A stretch of 38,090 nucleotides of DNA from an uncultured Desulfocapsa sp. (lineage in GTDB: Bacteria > Desulfobacterota > Desulfobulbia > Desulfobulbales > Desulfocapsaceae). The notes under the pieces are model-generated. The model ran no database searches and was not told the DNA's origin. It saw nothing but the letters and a program-made list of their open reading frames with translations. The stretch's first letter is position 1, and every line of letters starts with the position of its first letter. Shown here piece by piece: positions 12,258-37,818 of this stretch. The position numbers and the translations under genes are program-made. The stretch is from assembly GCA_947311475.1 (NCBI GenBank), contig CAMZLK010000124.1, positions 1 to 38,090 of the forward strand, written 5' to 3'.

Positions 12258-13325
12258 ATGGTAGCAGAAGATCAGAATTCCTGCGGTGGTACCACTGAAA
12301 AAAAGGTCATCCTTGTGTTGGCCATCTCTCTTTTTGCTGTTTTGCTGTGCCTTGCAGGCTGGTTTTTACAGTTTACGACTCAGGTAGCAGCAGGAAATAA
12401 GAGTGAATCGGAGGTTGTTATTGTCCCCAAGGGAGCCTCTGTGAAGGAAATAAACACCATTTTAGCAGGATCAGGTCTTGTGAAAGATGATGTGCGTTTT
12501 CTTTTTCTTGCGCGCTATCTTGGGCTTGCTTCCAGGTTGCAGGCAGGCGAGTTTGCTTTGCATCGTGGTCAGACACCTCAGGAACTACTTAAAGAACTGG
12601 CCACTGCAAAACCTATTCAGCACGCTGTTATCATTCGGGAAGGATTGAATATTGCTGAGATTGCAAGGGTCTTTGCGGATGGTGGCTGGTGTGATGCAGA
12701 AGACTTTATTCACCTGGCAGAAGATCCCGTTTTTTTGAAAAGTTTAGGGCTTGGCTCACGTAAAAGTCTGGAAGGGTATTTGTACCCGGATACCTATCAT
12801 CTGACTCGGAAAGGACACACGACAGCTGATCTCATTCGCATGCAGGTGCGTCATTTTTTCACAGTATGGACAGAGATTAAGGCAGTCGCACCCCTTGATT
12901 TATCTCCCTATGAAGTCCTTATCCTGGCTTCCATGGTTGAAAAAGAGACGGCAAAAGCTGAAGAACGCCCACTTATTGCCGGCGTCTTTTTTAATCGTCT
13001 GAAAAAAGGTATGCGTATGCAGTCTGACCCCACAGTTGTATACGGAGTTGAGAATTATTCCGGTAAAATTACTCGAAAGCTCCTGCGAACCCCAACTCCC
13101 TACAATACTTATACCCTGAAACGATTGCCCGTTGGTCCCATCAGTAATCCCGGCAAAGCTGCGTTGTTAGCTGTTTTACATCCAACGAAGAGCAGGTTTT
13201 ATTATTTTGTCTCTCAAAATGATGGGAGCCACAAGTTTTCAGCGACTCTTCGGGAACACAATCGGGCGGTGAATAAATACCAGCGATCAAGGAAAAAGAA
13301 GGTGACAGAAGGTTCAAGGCTGTAG
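12258..13325 (+). CDS. mltG: Endolytic murein transglycosylase MltG (YceG-like)
   Basis: 355 residues from the ATG at 12258; a GTG at 12255 is equally placed relative to the weak AGG box. One transmembrane helix at about 17-38 (KKVILVLAISLFAVLLCLAG) anchors it in the inner membrane. A LysM-like region follows (VPKGASVKEINTILAGSGL). The catalytic domain carries the glutamate motif SMVEKETAKAEER (E228), then VFFNRLKKGMRMQSDPTVVYG and TPYNTYTLKRLPVGPISNPG, all conserved in YceG. It cuts nascent glycan strands and sets their length. It is probably co-transcribed with lon. Its last 12 bases overlap the convergent HD-GYP gene. Confidence 0.94.
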   Translation: MVAEDQNSCGGTTEKKVILVLAISLFAVLLCLAGWFLQFTTQVAAGNKSESEVVIVPKGASVKEINTILAGSGLVKDDVRFLFLARYLGLASRLQAGEFALHRGQTPQELLKELATAKPIQHAVIIREGLNIAEIARVFADGGWCDAEDFIHLAEDPVFLKSLGLGSRKSLEGYLYPDTYHLTRKGHTTADLIRMQVRHFFTVWTEIKAVAPLDLSPYEVLILASMVEKETAKAEERPLIAGVFFNRLKKGMRMQSDPTVVYGVENYSGKITRKLLRTPTPYNTYTLKRLPVGPISNPGKAALLAVLHPTKSRFYYFVSQNDGSHKFSATLREHNRAVNKYQRSRKKKVTEGSRL

Positions 13326-14525
13326 ATCCTGTTTTCTTGCAAGAAGTGCAATGAAATTGTCGACAAGAAAGGGGTTAAAGCTCGTTCCTTTCTTTTTGAC
13401 CAGTAGATCATGAATGAACTTTGCAGAGTTGGGCCTGCGGAAAGGTCTTGAGCACCGCATGGCGTCATAAGTGTCTGCAATGGATATCATCTGACTTACG
13501 ATATTTGTGTGCCATGTTTTCCCAATGCTTGGGTATCCTCCACCATCAAAATGGATATGATGTTCAAGGGCTGCAAGAAATGCCAGTTTGGGCGCGTCAG
13601 CTATACCCAATAGATACCCGGCCCCTTTGGCAGGATGACCTGTAATCACTTTTTGCTCATCCTTATCCAGTGGACCTGGTTTGTTCAGGATTTCTTCTGG
13701 GATAAACGTTTTTCCTATGTCGTATAGTGTCGCAGTTATCCCAATGTCATACAGATACTTTTCTGTAAATCCCAACGATTCTGCCTGGGCGAGTGTCAGG
13801 ATACAAACATTTATTACATGGGTAAAAGTGTATTCGTCACTTGTTTTTAATGTGGTGAGCAAGGAAAGCGGGTTCAGGTTTCTGGAAAATAGATCCACAA
13901 AAGAGGACATGCCTTCCTGTACTCCGCGGAGGTCGGCATTCTGGTTTTTTCTAATTGAAAAGTAGAGTTCCTGTGCCATTGTCAATTGTTTATCCGACAG
14001 GGCGTTCAGCTTAATAATGAGTTCCTGGTTCTTCTCGTTTGTTCTGATGTCAGGACTACTCAAAAAGAGAGGATCCTCTGGTGAAAGAGTGTCTCGTGGT
14101 CCTTCGTTTAGTTTAAGTTTCCCAAAAACAATACCCGGACAGTCTTTAACTGTTGTGATTTCTGGCGAAGAGAGGTCTTTGAGAAAACGGGTCAACTCTA
14201 TCTTTGTGACTTGATGGTTAAAAGTAAGATGGCTGATATTCTTTTCCTGCAGAACCATAATGAAGAGGGAAAAATATTCTGATTCCTCAAAGCGGATGGC
14301 CTTATTATTGATAATTAAGTCATTATCAATAATAAGGATATTTAATTCTTTAGTGGCTCTCAGGGTCTTTTTGAGGCTGATAAAGGCCTTGTCGATCATT
14401 TCTCTGGTCTGCGGGTGGTCGATGGAATATAGACGTGTGTTGCTGATGACAATTCTAAGCAGATAAAGGGTGTTGAATGTGTGTTGATGGATCCGGTTTT
14501 GTTGGTTGATACCAGGAGGTCTCAT
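13314..14525 (-). CDS. HD-GYP-type protein with degenerate HD motif (YD)
   Basis: 403 residues. The N-terminal ~125 residues (YSIDHPQTREMIDKAFISLK...) resemble the start of the neighbouring HEAT-like protein. The C-terminal HD-GYP domain (about 225-400) has H236 (FTHVINV), TGHPAKGAGYL (H297), EHHIHFDGGGYP with GYP at 330-332, and SIADTYDAM. The signature that normally reads LxHDIGK reads LYDIGK (Y268-D269), so the metal-binding histidine of the HD pair is missing, and HHE is HHI. Phosphodiesterase activity against c-di-GMP is therefore doubtful; a binding or scaffold role is possible. Third gene of a minus-strand cluster with a GGDEF-PilZ protein; 22 bases separate it from the HEAT gene. Its end overlaps mltG by 12 bases. 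Confidence 0.85.
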   Translation of the reverse strand: MRPPGINQQNRIHQHTFNTLYLLRIVISNTRLYSIDHPQTREMIDKAFISLKKTLRATKELNILIIDNDLIINNKAIRFEESEYFSLFIMVLQEKNISHLTFNHQVTKIELTRFLKDLSSPEITTVKDCPGIVFGKLKLNEGPRDTLSPEDPLFLSSPDIRTNEKNQELIIKLNALSDKQLTMAQELYFSIRKNQNADLRGVQEGMSSFVDLFSRNLNPLSLLTTLKTSDEYTFTHVINVCILTLAQAESLGFTEKYLYDIGITATLYDIGKTFIPEEILNKPGPLDKDEQKVITGHPAKGAGYLLGIADAPKLAFLAALEHHIHFDGGGYPSIGKTWHTNIVSQMISIADTYDAMRCSRPFRRPNSAKFIHDLLVKKKGTSFNPFLVDNFIALLARKQDLQP

Positions 14526-14547: not shown

Positions 14548-16722
14548 TTATTGTCCCAAAAGGAGAGAATTACATATTTTGTGAATCTCCTTATCTTTTA
14601 GCTTCAATCCCCTTCTAACTAATTTTATTCTATCTTTATTTCCATACCCTTTTAACGAATAAAAGAGAATCCTTTTCATTGTTAAGAGCTGTTCCCTGTG
14701 GAACGGCCATTTTGTAAAGGCAATTTTTTCAAGACAGGGTAATGCCCTTGGATCACCGATGTGGCTGAGTATAAGAAAGAGTTTCCTGTTTCGTTCAATG
14801 GCGGATTGTTTTACAAACTGATATTCGAGAAGATTGAGAAGTCCCTGGGTACAGGCCGGCGGATTGTGTCTGTTGCAGAGTTCAATTGCTGCGTTAACTG
14901 TAATTTCATTTTTTGATTCCAACATGGAGATAAGGGTGGCGATACCTTCTTTATCATTTATTGGAAGCAACAAATCGAGCACTTGAATACGAATATCAGC
15001 ATCTTCATGGGAGAGCAGAGGATGCAGGAGGCGGACTGTTCCCTGGAGCCCCAGATATTCAACCAGAATAAGGAATCGACGGGTTTTGACTGTTGTTGTT
15101 TCGGGAAGAATCGTGAATATTTTTGTGAGCGTTTCGAGTCTGAATGATTTAAAGACAGCCACCAAAGGATTATTAAGTGAAGGCTTAGGAGTCATACAGA
15201 ATATCTTGAGGAGTTTTTCGAGGATATGAGGACAGAAAAGGGACAAAAAATCCACTGCATCCCGTAAATTTTTTTCCGGGAGTTCGGGGAGGATGGAGTA
15301 GGTGTAGTTGAGGAAATCTGGGTGTGTAAATTCCTGCAGACATTTAGATGCAACTCTTCTGGAGCGTTGCTGCTTTTTGTCTTTTGCCTGTTGCCATAGG
15401 GTTTTGCAGGTAAACTGCAGAAGAGCAAAGGCTCCCTTGTCTGGAAGTAACAGAGCTATTTCCATGAGCCTTGCGGCTAATTCGGCATATTCTTCTTCAT
15501 CAGCAGATTGCTTCATGAGGATAAGTGTGGCACAGACAATTTGTTTATCTAAAGAATCATCTTCCAGACTTGCCAGGTGTTTATCCAGGTCGAACCCTGC
15601 TGGAGCTTTTGAGGGTTGTTTTGCTTCTGCAAGCTTTTGAAGTGAGTTCTGGTAGTTTGGACTAACATGTTTGCTGTGGTCTTCAGGCTCCATAAGGTTA
15701 CTTGTTTTCTTCTGTCTGGCAATGGAGGCCTGGGTGGAAGGGGACGGTTTTGCTCGTATTTGGGAAAGCTTTTTGATGAGGTTTAGAAGCGCGGGGGAGA
15801 CATGTACATTCTTTCTGTTTATCTGCTGCAGCATTTCCAGCACAATGGAATGAGAAAAGGTACTGAGTGTTTTCTCAGGGTTGCTCTGTGCCATGTTTTG
15901 GTCACATTTCTTAAGGGTCATATTGAGAAATTGTTTCCGCAGCTCCGGATTTAAAGACTCTAAAATCCGGCTGAATTCCTTTCCACCCGGGGCAGATACT
16001 GAGCTGTTCTGTTCGTGGGGCTGCCGCAGCATTTGATCGAGTAAGGTTGAAAACAGATTGAGAAATTCCGGGTGGTTCTTCGCATGCTTATTGATGGCTG
16101 CTGCCAGCACTTCCGGGGCAATATTTTGTGTCTCTTCACCAGGTTTTGTATTGCCTCCCAGATATCCCAGTATTCCTCTGGTTAGTTTCTGGGTAAATGC
16201 CAGCCATGTGAGTGGGGCTGAATCATCATTTTCCAGGTCTGCACTGGTGTTGTCTGTACGATCAAAATAGTCATAGTTTATTATTTCGATGTCAATGTGA
16301 GGGATGCTGAGAGACGAAAGCTCCTGCTGCAGGGTTTTACCGGCCTGGTTCTGTTCAGGAAGGACTCCCACAGTTTTAAGAAATAGAAAGAGGGAATGTT
16401 GACCGACACCGGAAGAAAAGTTAATGGAAGCAATTTCATGCCGGCTGAGAATTGTTGCAAAGGCTGAACAGGCTGGTGAATCTTCCCCTAAAATGTAGTC
16501 TTCAAAAGTGATAACATTTCTGGCAATACCAAACAGGATGCTTCGTTTTGTATTAAGCATTCTGTTAAGTGACTGGTATGCAAGGAGGAGTCTGCTTTTT
16601 ACCAATGAATGGCCAGCAGGATAGAGTTGGATATTTTTAAGAGCTAGATGAAGTGATGTCAGTAACTCCGTGAGCTGTTTGGTTTCTTTCGTTTGTAGAG
16701 GATGCTTGTTTTTTGTATCCAC
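14548..16722 (-). CDS. HEAT-repeat-like protein sharing its N-terminal domain with the adjacent HD-GYP protein
   Basis: 724 residues, GTG start. Residues ~15-120 (ALKNIQLYPAGHSLVKSRLL, then LFGIARNVITFEDYIL and HEIASINFSSGVGQHSLFLF) follow the same pattern as residues 20-120 of the HD-GYP protein: a YPxxHP-like start, a hydrophobic strand pair, and a SInF/SHLTF block. The middle is helical and polar with few landmarks. The C-terminal third (about 540-720) reads as HEAT-like helical pairs: LLHPLLSHEDADIRIQVLDL, NEITVNAAIELCNRHN, RALPCLEKIAF. No catalytic motif is seen. It probably acts as a scaffold for its neighbours in c-di-GMP signalling. It lies 38 bases after the GGDEF gene in one likely operon. 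Confidence 0.65.
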   Translation of the reverse strand: MDTKNKHPLQTKETKQLTELLTSLHLALKNIQLYPAGHSLVKSRLLLAYQSLNRMLNTKRSILFGIARNVITFEDYILGEDSPACSAFATILSRHEIASINFSSGVGQHSLFLFLKTVGVLPEQNQAGKTLQQELSSLSIPHIDIEIINYDYFDRTDNTSADLENDDSAPLTWLAFTQKLTRGILGYLGGNTKPGEETQNIAPEVLAAAINKHAKNHPEFLNLFSTLLDQMLRQPHEQNSSVSAPGGKEFSRILESLNPELRKQFLNMTLKKCDQNMAQSNPEKTLSTFSHSIVLEMLQQINRKNVHVSPALLNLIKKLSQIRAKPSPSTQASIARQKKTSNLMEPEDHSKHVSPNYQNSLQKLAEAKQPSKAPAGFDLDKHLASLEDDSLDKQIVCATLILMKQSADEEEYAELAARLMEIALLLPDKGAFALLQFTCKTLWQQAKDKKQQRSRRVASKCLQEFTHPDFLNYTYSILPELPEKNLRDAVDFLSLFCPHILEKLLKIFCMTPKPSLNNPLVAVFKSFRLETLTKIFTILPETTTVKTRRFLILVEYLGLQGTVRLLHPLLSHEDADIRIQVLDLLLPINDKEGIATLISMLESKNEITVNAAIELCNRHNPPACTQGLLNLLEYQFVKQSAIERNRKLFLILSHIGDPRALPCLEKIAFTKWPFHREQLLTMKRILFYSLKGYGNKDRIKLVRRGLKLKDKEIHKICNSLLLGQ

Positions 16723-16760: not shown

Positions 16761-17948
16761 TCAGGCTAGTTGTTGCAGAACGTACTCTGCTATTGTTTCG
16801 GTGGATTTTACAGAGGAATTGAGGCTTAGAAAGCTGAGGCCAATATCATAAAGATTTGTGTCAAATTTTTCCACCCGAACGACTGATCCTATAACGGTCA
16901 TGCTGGTTTTGTCCTGAAGAGGGATTAGCAGTTCAATCCGTGTGCCTATATCGAAGCTGCTACTGCAAGTAATGAGGATTCCTCCTTCACTGATGTTGTT
17001 ACATTTACTGGAGTCTTCAGTCTCTTCAATTGAAAGGGATCGTATCTTCACATCACGTTTGAGTTCTATTCTGGTAAAAGTCCTTTTTTCTTCTGAAAAC
17101 AGGCTGATTGCATGTTTGCCACGACTTTTTGCCTGATACAGGGCCCGATCAGCGCAATCTGTCAGCCCTTTAGAGGTTTCGCTATCCAGTGGAAAAGAAG
17201 CAAGCCCAGCACTGCATGAGACAGGGACATCTGTACCTTTTATGTTGATAGTGAGCTTGTTAATACGGTCATGGAGTTTCTTTCCGACAAGCAGCCCCAT
17301 AAATTTATTGGTTTCAGGAAGTAAAATAACGAATTCATCTCCACCAAACCGACATGCGATATCTTCTTTACGTTTTGAGTGAGAAAAAATTTCTCCCACT
17401 TGTTTTAATGCCTCGTCTCCAGCAAGGTGACCATATTCGTCATTTATATTTTTGAAATTATCAAGGTCAAAAAAGATCAGGGTAGTGTTGCGTTTATGCC
17501 TTTTTGCCCGTGAAATTTCCTGCTCAAAAAGATTCTGAAAGGCACCTCGACTGAGAAGTCCAGTGAGGAAATCCTGGTGAGCTGATTTAAGAGTTTCTTC
17601 GAAACGAGCAAATTCAATCAGTTTAGGGTTATCGAGTCTTGGTTGAATGGTGCTGAAATAATCACAGGCTGCAGTTGTCAGTCCCACTGGACGGACAAGT
17701 TTGTTTTGTAAAGATTTTGCGTGTGTAACTATGGCATCCCAGTGCTCACAGGCGTTGTCCTGGGTGAATTTCAGTTGAACGAGACTATACAGAATGATCT
17801 TGCATGATTCTTTTTTATTTTCAGTTAAAAAATCTTTTAACTGTTCGCATTGAGTTGTGAAGTCTCCGGGCGCACTGCTCAGTGCATTGAGAATGTTTTG
17901 CTGAAGGATTTGTATCTCTGATGGAGATGTCGGGTCTTTGGGAGTCAT
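16761..17948 (-). CDS. Diguanylate cyclase with C-terminal PilZ domain
   Basis: 395 residues. The N-terminal ~120 residues are helical and unassigned. The GGDEF domain begins at DFLTGLLSRGAF (127) with FFDLDNFKNINDEYGHLAGD (159-178); the active-site motif GGDEF is intact at 202-206. The product-inhibition I-site RxxD (R193-D196, RKED) precedes it by the standard five residues. A PilZ domain follows from ~287: RTFTR (289-293) fits RxxxR and NISEGG (318-323) fits (D/N)xSxxG, so c-di-GMP can both be made and bound. No signal or membrane segment: cytoplasmic. First gene of the cluster, preceded by three tandem 10-bp repeats that duplicate its ribosome binding site. Intact motifs make cyclase activity likely. 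Confidence 0.9.
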   Translation of the reverse strand: MTPKDPTSPSEIQILQQNILNALSSAPGDFTTQCEQLKDFLTENKKESCKIILYSLVQLKFTQDNACEHWDAIVTHAKSLQNKLVRPVGLTTAACDYFSTIQPRLDNPKLIEFARFEETLKSAHQDFLTGLLSRGAFQNLFEQEISRAKRHKRNTTLIFFDLDNFKNINDEYGHLAGDEALKQVGEIFSHSKRKEDIACRFGGDEFVILLPETNKFMGLLVGKKLHDRINKLTINIKGTDVPVSCSAGLASFPLDSETSKGLTDCADRALYQAKSRGKHAISLFSEEKRTFTRIELKRDVKIRSLSIEETEDSSKCNNISEGGILITCSSSFDIGTRIELLIPLQDKTSMTVIGSVVRVEKFDTNLYDIGLSFLSLNSSVKSTETIAEYVLQQLA

Positions 17949-23884: not shown

Positions 23885-24192
23885 TATTGACCTCCTGAGC
23901 TTATTTATAGCAAATTTTAGGCCACCCTGTGTATCGTGCTGTAGTGACAATGATTATTGTTTCGCCTTTCATTCCAACTTTCCCTTATTGATCTTCATCG
24001 TCATAATTCTGACTTTTATTGAGAACTATTTTTCTTTCAATTTAAAGGCTAATACATATACAATGAATAAATGAGGGTACGTCGATGGAAGAGTGTCGTC
24101 GCAGAGTTGAAATGAATCATAATACCAGGGGGATATGGTGGTGGCGAATGTAAAACAACTACTGGGTAATCTTCTTCATATTGAGGATCTCG
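23885..24192. other. Divergent intergenic region between rlpA-like gene and chemoreceptor
   Basis: About 308 bases. It should hold promoters for both genes. CATATACAAT near 24053 is a possible -10 for the plus-strand gene. The CAGGGGGATATGG stretch at 24126-24138 looks like a ribosome binding site for a spurious ORF in another frame. No conserved RNA or repeat was seen. Confidence 0.3.
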
Positions 24193-26174
24193 ATGTGGAC
24201 CAAAAAACTCAGAGTCCTGATCATACTTTTTCTTTCCATCCTTACCATTATGGTTCTCTATACCTCTTATACTGTATATCAGCAGAAGGGGTACGGCCTT
24301 GTTATCAATATTGCCGGTCGACAACGGATGCTTAGCCAGAAATTTACTAAAGAGTTTTATCTTTCCCAGTTACAGCAGGGAGCCAAAAAAGCATTCAACC
24401 CGTCAATGATGGCAAAGAGTGCAAAGTTGTTTGATGTGTCTCTTGCTGCCTTGCAAAACGGTGGAACAACATATAAGGATCTGGGAATGACCAAAGCAGT
24501 GAAATTGTCAGCAGCAGGGACGGATGCAGTAAAGAAACAGCTGGACAAGGTGGAAACTTTGTGGCAGCAACTGCTGATAAAAGTGGATGCCGTGAAAGGA
24601 AAAAGTTGCCCCCCCCCCCTGAACTTCTGCGGGAAATCAACAAACTCAGTGTGTCCACATTAAAAGCCATGAATAAGGCTATTGGTATGCTTGCTGATAA
24701 CTCTGCCGCAAAGGTGAGTACTATGCAGGTTGTTGAAATTCTGCTGTGGATTTTTGCTGTCTTTCTTTCTTTACTGGTTGGCTCAGTGATTATCTCTTCC
24801 ATCACGCATCCCCTTGAAGAAGTTGTTGCGACAACGAAAAAGATCAGATCCGGTGATCTCAGAGGCACTCTTGTACTGGAGACCTTAAACAATGATGAAC
24901 TTGGCGCCCTGCAGTAAAATGTTGATAATATGCGCGGCGTGTTAAGCAGAGTAATTAACACTGTTCAACAAAATAGCAGACAGATGTCGGTATCGTCGGG
25001 ACAAGTGGCCATTATATCCAAAGAAATATCAGAGTCAAGCAGCAGGGAGCAGGAAAGCTCCGATCAGGTACTGCAGGCCATAGAGTCTTTGCAGCAAATC
25101 GCTCAGACAGTGGATACCCATATTGAGGAGGCACAGCTCAATGTGGATAAAACTGTACAGCAGGCCCGGGAAGGAGTCGATGTTGTTACTCAGAATATAG
25201 AGGAGCTCGCCGAAACAGTAAGTAGTGTAAATACAACGGCGGAGCAGATGGCAACCCTGAAACAGGCAACCATGCGGATTCACAAAATCATTGAGTCCAT
25301 TGAGAACATTGCTTCACAAACTGATCTGCTGGCACTTAACGCCACCATTGAAGCGGCGCGGGCAGGTGAGGCCGGAAAGGGGTCTGCTGTGGTTGCCAGC
25401 GAAATCAAGGAGCTCTCCAGACAAACCGCTGATTCCACAACTGAGATCACAAACCTTATTGATAGTCTTACTGAGCAGGTGGATAATTCCGTGGATTCCA
25501 TGCAACAGGTGGTAGAAAAAGTACATAATGCACAACAGCAATCAAAACAAACGGTTCTGGCTTTCGAATCGATGAAAGATGGTGTGGGCAGTGCCACGGA
25601 AAGTACCGGGCACATTGCAGAATATAATCATCAACAGTCAGAGCAGTTGACTCAGTTGCATGAGCGGTTGTACGAACTCTTTGATGTACTGAAACGTTCC
25701 ACAAACAAGACTCAGGAGACAACACTGGTTGCCAATGATCTGCACCTTGTTTCTGAGCGACTCAACGTGACATTGAGTGGCTTTGTTACAGCCCCCGAAG
25801 CATCTATCGAACGTTCCGGATCCGAGAAGCGGGAAACACCACGAATCGAGAATCGCATCAGGGTAACTGTCAATCTGGAACAGGGTGGTTTACAGATAAA
25901 TGGTATGACTCAGGACATCAGCATGGGAGGAATAAATCTGAAGTGTTCTCAGAAATTGCAGAAAAACACTTCTCTGCCCATCATCATTCATCTACCATTG
26001 GATGAGCGGGGAGAGACTGTGGAAATGTTACATCTCACCGGGCGGATTGTTCGTGAAGAGAAAAAACAGGGCTTTTACCATTATGGTATTCAATTCTCCA
26101 CGTTGAACAGTGAACAAAAACAATCATTGCAGACTATCTTCGATTTTTTCTGTAAACAGCACAGCTATGCCTGA
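24193..26174 (+). pseudogene. PilJ-type methyl-accepting chemotaxis protein with C-terminal PilZ domain, broken
   Basis: Start at ATG 24193 after TGAGGA. It reads through a membrane helix (LRVLIILFLSILTIMVL) and a PilJ-type sensor (INIAGRQRMLSQKFTKEF). Near residue 140 the frame is lost in a run of 11 C (24609-24619); one added C or two fewer restore it. In the new frame a second membrane helix (EILLWIFAVFLSLLVGSVI) and HAMP region follow, interrupted by an in-frame TAA at 24915 between GALQ and NVDNM. From 24918 onward the frame is open: signalling tip [20 protein letters not shown] and [16 protein letters not shown], then a PilZ domain with RETPR and DISMGG. It would join chemosensing or pilus control to c-di-GMP. 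Two lesions suggest a decaying gene; the downstream 414 codons could still be made from ATG 24930. Confidence 0.8.
24609..24619 (+). repeat. Homopolymeric C11 tract at a frameshift
   Basis: Eleven consecutive C within the coding part of the chemoreceptor gene, exactly where the reading frame changes. Such tracts slip readily and are used as phase switches in several bacteria; sequencing error is the other explanation. Confidence 0.8.
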
Positions 26175-36442: not shown

Positions 36443-37090
36443 ATGAAAAAAATTATTATAACTACAGTGTGTGCTGCATGCTTAAGTTTTGCCAGTTCTG
36501 CAATGGCAACATCAATTTTTTATGAGGCAACGGATGTAACTGGTGTTGGATCGGTAACATATGGTACTTTCTTAAATCCTAACGACGCTCCTGTCTTCTC
36601 ATTTACTGGGACTAACGGTAATGTGGATTATGATTTCAGTGCTTTTTCACCAGGAGAATACACATTAAGTGTTACTCTTGAAGGCTTTTGGGCTGATTTT
36701 AATGAAGATAACAATGTGGATTTTACGTTACCCAGTGGCACCTTAACCAGCAATCCCTTTGACCTTACCACATTACCATCTGCCAGTGGAACCGTCGGGC
36801 AGTTGACGTGGAATGTTGACCTTAATAGCGGCGGTTCGGTTTCGTATGATTTTGGTACCACCGGCACTTATACAAATGCTGGTGTTAATGCCATACTCGG
36901 AGGTTTAGATATCCTATATAGTGAGGATCATCTTGCAAATGGCGGTATGGATGCAAATATGGGCTGGGATACGCTGAGAGTTGAATTAAACAGCACCGCT
37001 CCTGTCCCCGAGCCTGCGACAATGTTTCTTTTCGGAACGGGCCTCCTTGGTCTGGTAGGTTATAATCGTAAACGCTCCGATAAAGCTTAA
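36443..37090 (+). CDS. PEP-CTERM-anchored secreted protein 1
   Basis: 215 residues. Signal peptide 1-22 (MKKIIITTVCAACLSFASSA, cut near AMA-TS). The mature part is acidic, rich in Thr, Gly, Asn and Asp, and likely all beta. The C-terminal sorting tail is VPEPATMFLFGTGLLGL followed by GYNRKR, the PEP motif, hydrophobic helix and basic end that exosortase recognises. It is exported, cut and released or anchored at the outer surface, as in floc or biofilm matrix proteins. An AGGAGAG box precedes the ATG. It is under the sigma-54 promoter at 36372. No exosortase is in the window. Confidence 0.92.
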   Translation: MKKIIITTVCAACLSFASSAMATSIFYEATDVTGVGSVTYGTFLNPNDAPVFSFTGTNGNVDYDFSAFSPGEYTLSVTLEGFWADFNEDNNVDFTLPSGTLTSNPFDLTTLPSASGTVGQLTWNVDLNSGGSVSYDFGTTGTYTNAGVNAILGGLDILYSEDHLANGGMDANMGWDTLRVELNSTAPVPEPATMFLFGTGLLGLVGYNRKRSDKA

Positions 37091-37097
37091 CCGCGGA

Positions 37098-37122
37098 ATA
37101 AACGGGGTCTGTCCCCCTTTTG
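37098..37122 (+). repeat. Partial GGGTCTGTCCCC repeat between the PEP-CTERM genes
   Basis: AACGGGGTCTGTCCCCCTTT contains the right-arm core (GTCTGTCCCC) of the palindrome family without its left arm. It lies eight bases after the first PEP-CTERM stop. Confidence 0.5.
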
Positions 37123-37167
37123 CTTTCTTTTGCTTTAAACATTTTAAACAATTAAAAGGAGAAAAAA

Positions 37168-37818
37168 ATGAAGAAAATGTATGTTACAATTGCCGTATGC
37201 TCTATGTCATTGTTATTTGCGTCGATTTCTACAGCAGCTGTGTTGATGATAAATGATAGGACAACATTTGAAGCTCTTGGTGTTATTGATTATAATAATG
37301 GTTTCGATAGTTTTGGATCAGGGTTTTCATTTCCAGGTGATCCTTGGACTAGCCAAGGTGTTACATATACCAGTTCTCAGAATCTTATAATAGGAGCGAG
37401 TACTGGCTATTCTTCTGATGGTACTCCAATGATGGCAAACAATCATTGGAATCCAGTCACTGGCGATATTGATGCTTTAGCAGGTTATGATCTCTTCGGA
37501 TTTGATGCAGGTTGGATGTCCGGAGATGACCAGGGTACACTGATGTCCATTATGACTAATCTGGGTAACTATTCATTTAATGTAGATTTAAATGAAGCTA
37601 CCCATACTGATTTTTTCGGATTTGTGGCTGATGGTGGGGAATATATGACTGGATTTAATATCAAGACCACATATCATTATGCATTAGCTGGTATGGATAA
37701 CGTTACCGTTGGACATCAAGGCAATGCACCTGTTCCTGAACCTGCTACTATGCTACTTATGGGTACTGGTCTTTTGGGTTTGATGGGTTACAATCGTAAG
37801 CGTTTCAATAAAAAATAA
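37168..37818 (+). CDS. PEP-CTERM-anchored secreted protein 2
   Basis: 216 residues. Signal peptide about 1-24 (MKKMYVTIAVCSMSLLFASI, cut near TAA). The mature domain contains FEALGVIDYNNGFDSFGSGF and DIDALAGYDLFGFDAGW, Gly/Asp/Thr-rich and probably a beta sandwich. The end is VPEPATMLLMGTGLLGL then GYNRKR, almost the same tail as protein 1, while the mature domains look unrelated. AAAAGGAG precedes the ATG. With only 77 bases between the genes and no own box, it is probably co-transcribed from the sigma-54 promoter. A strong terminator follows. Confidence 0.92.
   Translation: MKKMYVTIAVCSMSLLFASISTAAVLMINDRTTFEALGVIDYNNGFDSFGSGFSFPGDPWTSQGVTYTSSQNLIIGASTGYSSDGTPMMANNHWNPVTGDIDALAGYDLFGFDAGWMSGDDQGTLMSIMTNLGNYSFNVDLNEATHTDFFGFVADGGEYMTGFNIKTTYHYALAGMDNVTVGHQGNAPVPEPATMLLMGTGLLGLMGYNRKRFNKK

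Follow-up and report, generated by a model that had tools for sequence, protein, structure and literature searches.

The window, meaning the whole stretch of 38,090 nucleotides analysed here, is one of the 220 contigs into which a 3.16 Mb genome (G000) is assembled. It carries what is very probably, judging from comparison with related copies, a membrane chemoreceptor gene of the PilJ-sensor/HAMP/MCP/PilZ type that was broken recently (Table 1). The PilJ half lies in a frame that is open from 24181 to 24663, the HAMP half is read in a different frame, and the MCP signalling and PilZ domains share a single open frame whose sense codons span 24918-26171 and whose first ATG is at 24930. In the translation, a hydrophobic stretch flanks the PilJ domain on each side, and the PilZ part contains RETPR and DISMGG, which fit RxxxR and DxSxxG, the c-di-GMP-binding motifs of PilZ. 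The presence of an MCP signalling domain together with a C-terminal PilZ domain identifies the ancestral product as a PilZ-containing chemoreceptor. The frame from sensor to PilZ, continuous in the related genome G004, is interrupted here by two frame changes and one stop. Other c-di-GMP-related genes of the window encode a GGDEF-PilZ protein (16761-17948) and, close by, proteins with an HD domain (13314-14525) and with HEAT repeats (14548-16722), and two neighbouring genes at 36443-37818 carry PEP-CTERM sorting motifs.

Table 1. Features of the broken receptor gene in the window and of the che operon in the same genome.
Feature	Position	Strand	Evidence
Native-like start and conserved cytoplasmic N-tail (MVVANVKQLLGNLLHIEDLDVD)	24135..24200	+	Alignment with G004, G003 and G017
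Lesion 1: one base more than in relatives, frame shifted before TM1	24196..24207	+	DNA alignment with three relatives
TM1 and PilJ-type sensor domain, read in the first-half frame	24193..24608	+	Pfam PilJ, E 2.4e-14
Lesion 2: C11 run where the frame changes; relatives are about 5 bases shorter here	24609..24619	+	
Remainder of the sensor region, TM2 and HAMP	24620..24914	+	Pfam HAMP, E 2.2e-6
Lesion 3: in-frame TAA where HAMP meets MCP	24915..24917	+	Relatives carry T, T, H or S
MCP signalling domain and C-terminal PilZ, open for 418 codons before the stop	24918..26174	+	Pfam MCPsignal, 1.1e-34; PilZ, 4.8e-14
Dismantled che operon, on a contig other than that of the window	L061:8376-11677 (G000:C56)		Comparison with G004

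Alignment with three relatives, G004, G003 and G017, places a native-like start at the ATG at 24135, which AGGGGG precedes by a short distance. The conserved N-tail beginning there ('...LLHIEDL') is read in the frame of the downstream half and not in that of the PilJ half. The first-pass annotation had the protein start at 24193, a position that instead coincides with a further lesion, since the window is one base longer than all three relatives at about 24201 in the DNA alignment. The PilJ stretch, from about 24201 to the C run, is therefore read in a frame that differs from those at both ends. The stop codon that the same annotation had located between HAMP and the signalling part is indeed present and in frame. 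The CAA that it implies for an intact gene finds no counterpart in the relatives, as G004, G003, G008 and G017 carry T, T, H and S, respectively, and not Q. In addition, the hairpin motif reads GKGSAVVA in the window and GKGFAVVA in the other aligned copies, an F-to-S change. Measured against an intact copy, the gene carries three disabling lesions that are independent of one another, as would be expected of a pseudogene.

The C11 tract had previously been interpreted as a sign of phase variation, with one added C, or two fewer, restoring the frame. The two halves are separated in frame exactly at this tract, which is long and rare: 0.02 such runs are expected by chance in the window, and 2 of 100 window shuffles contain one. 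These properties would suit a contingency switch, in which slippage turns the receptor on and off across the population. However, no length of the C run by itself yields the full protein, because lesions 1 and 3 persist at any tract length, barring a start at 24193 combined with readthrough of the stop. The tract is also missing from the corresponding, shorter stretch of all three aligned relatives, and the kinase pathway through which a switched receptor would act is lost. Moreover, 7 of 8 other interior C9/G9 runs examined in the genome sit within long open frames and not at breaks; these eight were drawn from 100 of 111 listed places, leaving out three very long C runs, of which one measures 28 bases (G000:C112:493-520) and two stand at contig starts (C127:1-24 and C135:1-61). 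These three are probably assembly or library artefacts. On these sequence comparisons, simple phase variation is unsupported and a contingency switch very improbable. The tract is most likely one scar among several, with no on/off function, and the run probably expanded by slippage once reading frame had ceased to matter. The idea of a programmed frameshift at this site was likewise set aside, since the aligned relatives have neither the run nor the frame change, and lesion 1 precedes the run.

Damage extends to the chemotaxis genes of the same genome, for which the che operon of G004 served as the reference. The only cheA found in the genome has a good start, followed by a frame break after about residue 94 and the absence of residues 385-687 (about 300 codons), so that no working CheA partner for the receptor was found. 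Further along, cheB ends after 53 residues, with 91% identity up to that point, and cheR, present in 16 of 20 genomes of the genus, gave no match in this genome. Both cheW (94% identical) and the next response-regulator gene of the operon are whole. A cheY-like gene, encoding a single receiver domain in G004, contains one in-frame stop (L071:3150-3518) and lies beside lesion-free flagellar genes. The genome holds two MCPsignal genes, both broken; the one other than the receptor described here (L067:253-972, G000:C21) is cut in its hairpin and adjoins an inverted repeat. Among the other 19 genomes of the genus, 16 have 7-19 such genes and three (G001, G005 and G012) have 0 or 1, and chemotaxis may have been lost more than once in the genus.

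The flagellar genes provided a control. From 28 G004 open reading frames aligned to two contig stretches, 25 sense flagellar-cluster genes were kept, leaving out two antisense frames overlapping other genes and the cheY-like gene. Over the part that aligned, all 25, two of which were covered only partly, were free of stops and frame breaks; apparent stops in a FliI-like and an 832-residue frame lie upstream of the first Met and are no lesions. As the flagellar genes are clean and the che genes damaged, the damage is specific to chemotaxis, which argues against assembly noise. An intact gene that merely appears broken through assembly or consensus errors is accordingly quite improbable. Long C runs are error-prone, and long poly-C stands at contig starts in this assembly, but three separate lesions in one gene contrast with the clean control, and the hundreds of codons gone from cheA, cheB and cheR are no consensus error. 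Given the large operon damage on another contig and the clean flagellar control, the gene as a whole is unlikely to owe its state to assembly error, and a single-base error at the C run or the TAA is possible. Chemotaxis thus appears, from these genes, to be in the process of recent loss, with the examined motor genes retained. A literature search on the loss of chemotaxis gave no papers.

The receptor gene occurs in 8 of 93 genomes of the family (E 1e-60), that of the window included. The copy in G004 is intact, with an open frame of 688 codons, and that in G003 is broken by a TAA in TM2. In G017, the gene is found on two contigs (L077 and L033), and on both of them the HAMP/MCP junction is followed by one and the same inverted repeat of 18 bases and by a 10-base duplication; the receptor gene there appears to be interrupted by an element bearing 18-base inverted repeats. 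The copy in G033, a one-contig genome, has a frame break at a C7 run between MCP and PilZ (L036:2387-2393), which represents either an error of sequencing or another case in this gene family of a break at a C run. A second copy from the genus of G033, in G064, reaches the contig end before PilZ, and the G008 copy is split over two contigs. In G089, the gene lies on L079 (contig CAMZKN010000098.1 of the uncultured Desulfobulbaceae bacterium isolate RB_MAG_00004), where 117 unrelated bases at the contig start, possibly a contig-end artefact, precede MCP-PilZ. Two weak matches from the contig scan (L080 and L081) were dropped. The MCP-PilZ part of L079 (118-1241) is 90% identical in DNA to the window gene, whereas its neighbour genes match one contig of the window's genome at 69-75% only, which suggests that the receptor gene was transferred between genera. 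Taken across these genomes, the gene is patchy and often lost, even alongside a long open CheA frame, as in G003 and G017.

The timing of the damage can be approached through sequence divergence. The N-half of the window gene is 63.2% identical to that of G003, and the G003 N-half is in turn 60.5% identical to that of G004 and 57.7% to that of G017, a comparison that leaves out G008, which was in the wrong frame; no excess divergence of the broken N-half over the N-halves of the relatives was seen. For MCP-PilZ, 375 codons compared with L079 gave a dS of 0.42, a dN of 0.035, and a dN/dS of 0.084. When changes in this part were polarised, 10 nonsynonymous and 29 synonymous changes fell on the window branch and 14 and 33 on the L079 branch, with 6 and 19 not assigned, and there was no sign of relaxation of MCP-PilZ on the window branch. 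The low dN/dS is compatible with either recent death or continued use, and both halves seem to have been under selection until recently.

Continued use would mean that the sensor half is dead and that a soluble MCP-PilZ protein is made from an internal start, through which c-di-GMP would act, in the cytoplasm, on a chemosensory array or some other target. The 418 open codons and the low dN/dS relative to a close copy that also lacks the sensor part, at a contig start, are consistent with such a protein, as is the position of the lesions: all six found in four broken copies (G000, G003, G017 and G089) fall in the first 301 of 676 codons. The probability of this clustering is 0.008 if lesions are uniform, 0.034 with the G033 break included, and 0.04-0.13 when counting is by genome, for a boundary chosen post hoc. 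Because this boundary was picked after the data had been seen, and because the copies were found by queries containing MCP-PilZ, which favours copies with a whole C-half, the clustering is given little weight. Against separate use of MCP-PilZ, the genome has a crippled CheA and has lost CheR and CheB, no clear ribosome-binding site is read before the ATG at 24930, and the hairpin carries the F-to-S change at a conserved residue. Since the N-half is equally undiverged, recency explains the conservation of the C-half, and a functional soluble product is unlikely. A wider version of this idea is also doubtful: that in a Desulfobulbaceae-like group the sensor of the PilZ-chemoreceptor was severed repeatedly and independently, and that the soluble MCP-PilZ part was retained and passed from genus to genus as a module in its own right that responds to c-di-GMP. 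The severing events behind that reading are the frameshifts and stop in the window, the stop in G003, the insertion element in G017, and the junction in G089.

Decay of the receptor after the loss of chemotaxis is the preferred explanation, with a probability of about 0.83: the pathway was dismantled, and the receptor, released from selection, gathered lesions. By analogy with known chemoreceptors, the sensor in working relatives would detect a signal from outside, CheA would be under the control of the MCP rod, and PilZ would add a c-di-GMP input. In this lineage, deletions and point lesions have dismantled the pathway, and pathway loss presumably came first, thereby freeing the receptor from selection. 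The receptor would then have taken on an extra base close to its start, a frame change at a lengthened C run, a stop, and the hairpin change. The decay is ascribed to pathway loss because most chemotaxis genes were recently lost. The first-pass annotation had taken the nonsense codon as a sign of decay, and this is borne out by the three lesions in the receptor together with those in cheA, cheB, cheR, the cheY-like gene, and the only other MCP gene. Two observations run counter to this account. The MCP-PilZ part, with its low dN/dS, is free of stops and frameshifts; and G003 and G017, despite their open CheA frames, have broken copies of this gene as well, so pathway loss does not account for every broken copy. 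The locus is a case of ordinary gene decay in an informative context.

PilJ proper works with type IV pili. The window gene shares the N-terminal PilJ domain with PilJ-type methyl-accepting proteins and differs from them in having PilZ fused at its end. Chemoreceptors with an MCP signalling domain followed by a C-terminal PilZ domain include Tlp1 and Aer of Azospirillum brasilense, of which Tlp1 is membrane anchored with a periplasmic sensor (PMC6406031); Cbp1 of Azorhizobium caulinodans is likewise described as PilZ-ended (PMC6454048). The window gene has the same MCP and C-terminal PilZ order, and its sensor is PilJ-type, whereas that of Aer is PAS. Unlike all three, it is broken in three places and its partner kinase is damaged. 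A further point of comparison is tlpB of Helicobacter pylori, where a variable G-repeat in the mRNA leader, targeted by an sRNA, is reported to be tied to chemoreceptor expression (PMC8295292). In both cases a long G/C run is tied to a chemoreceptor gene, but the run in the window is part of the coding sequence, in a gene that bears further lesions, and not of a leader.

The locus and its genome offer a clean snapshot of a motile lineage losing chemotaxis, in which the kinase, methylation, and receptor genes break and the compared flagellar genes stay intact. Should the retained MCP-PilZ parts turn out to be expressed, they would show that a chemoreceptor can lose its external sensor and still keep its input from c-di-GMP.
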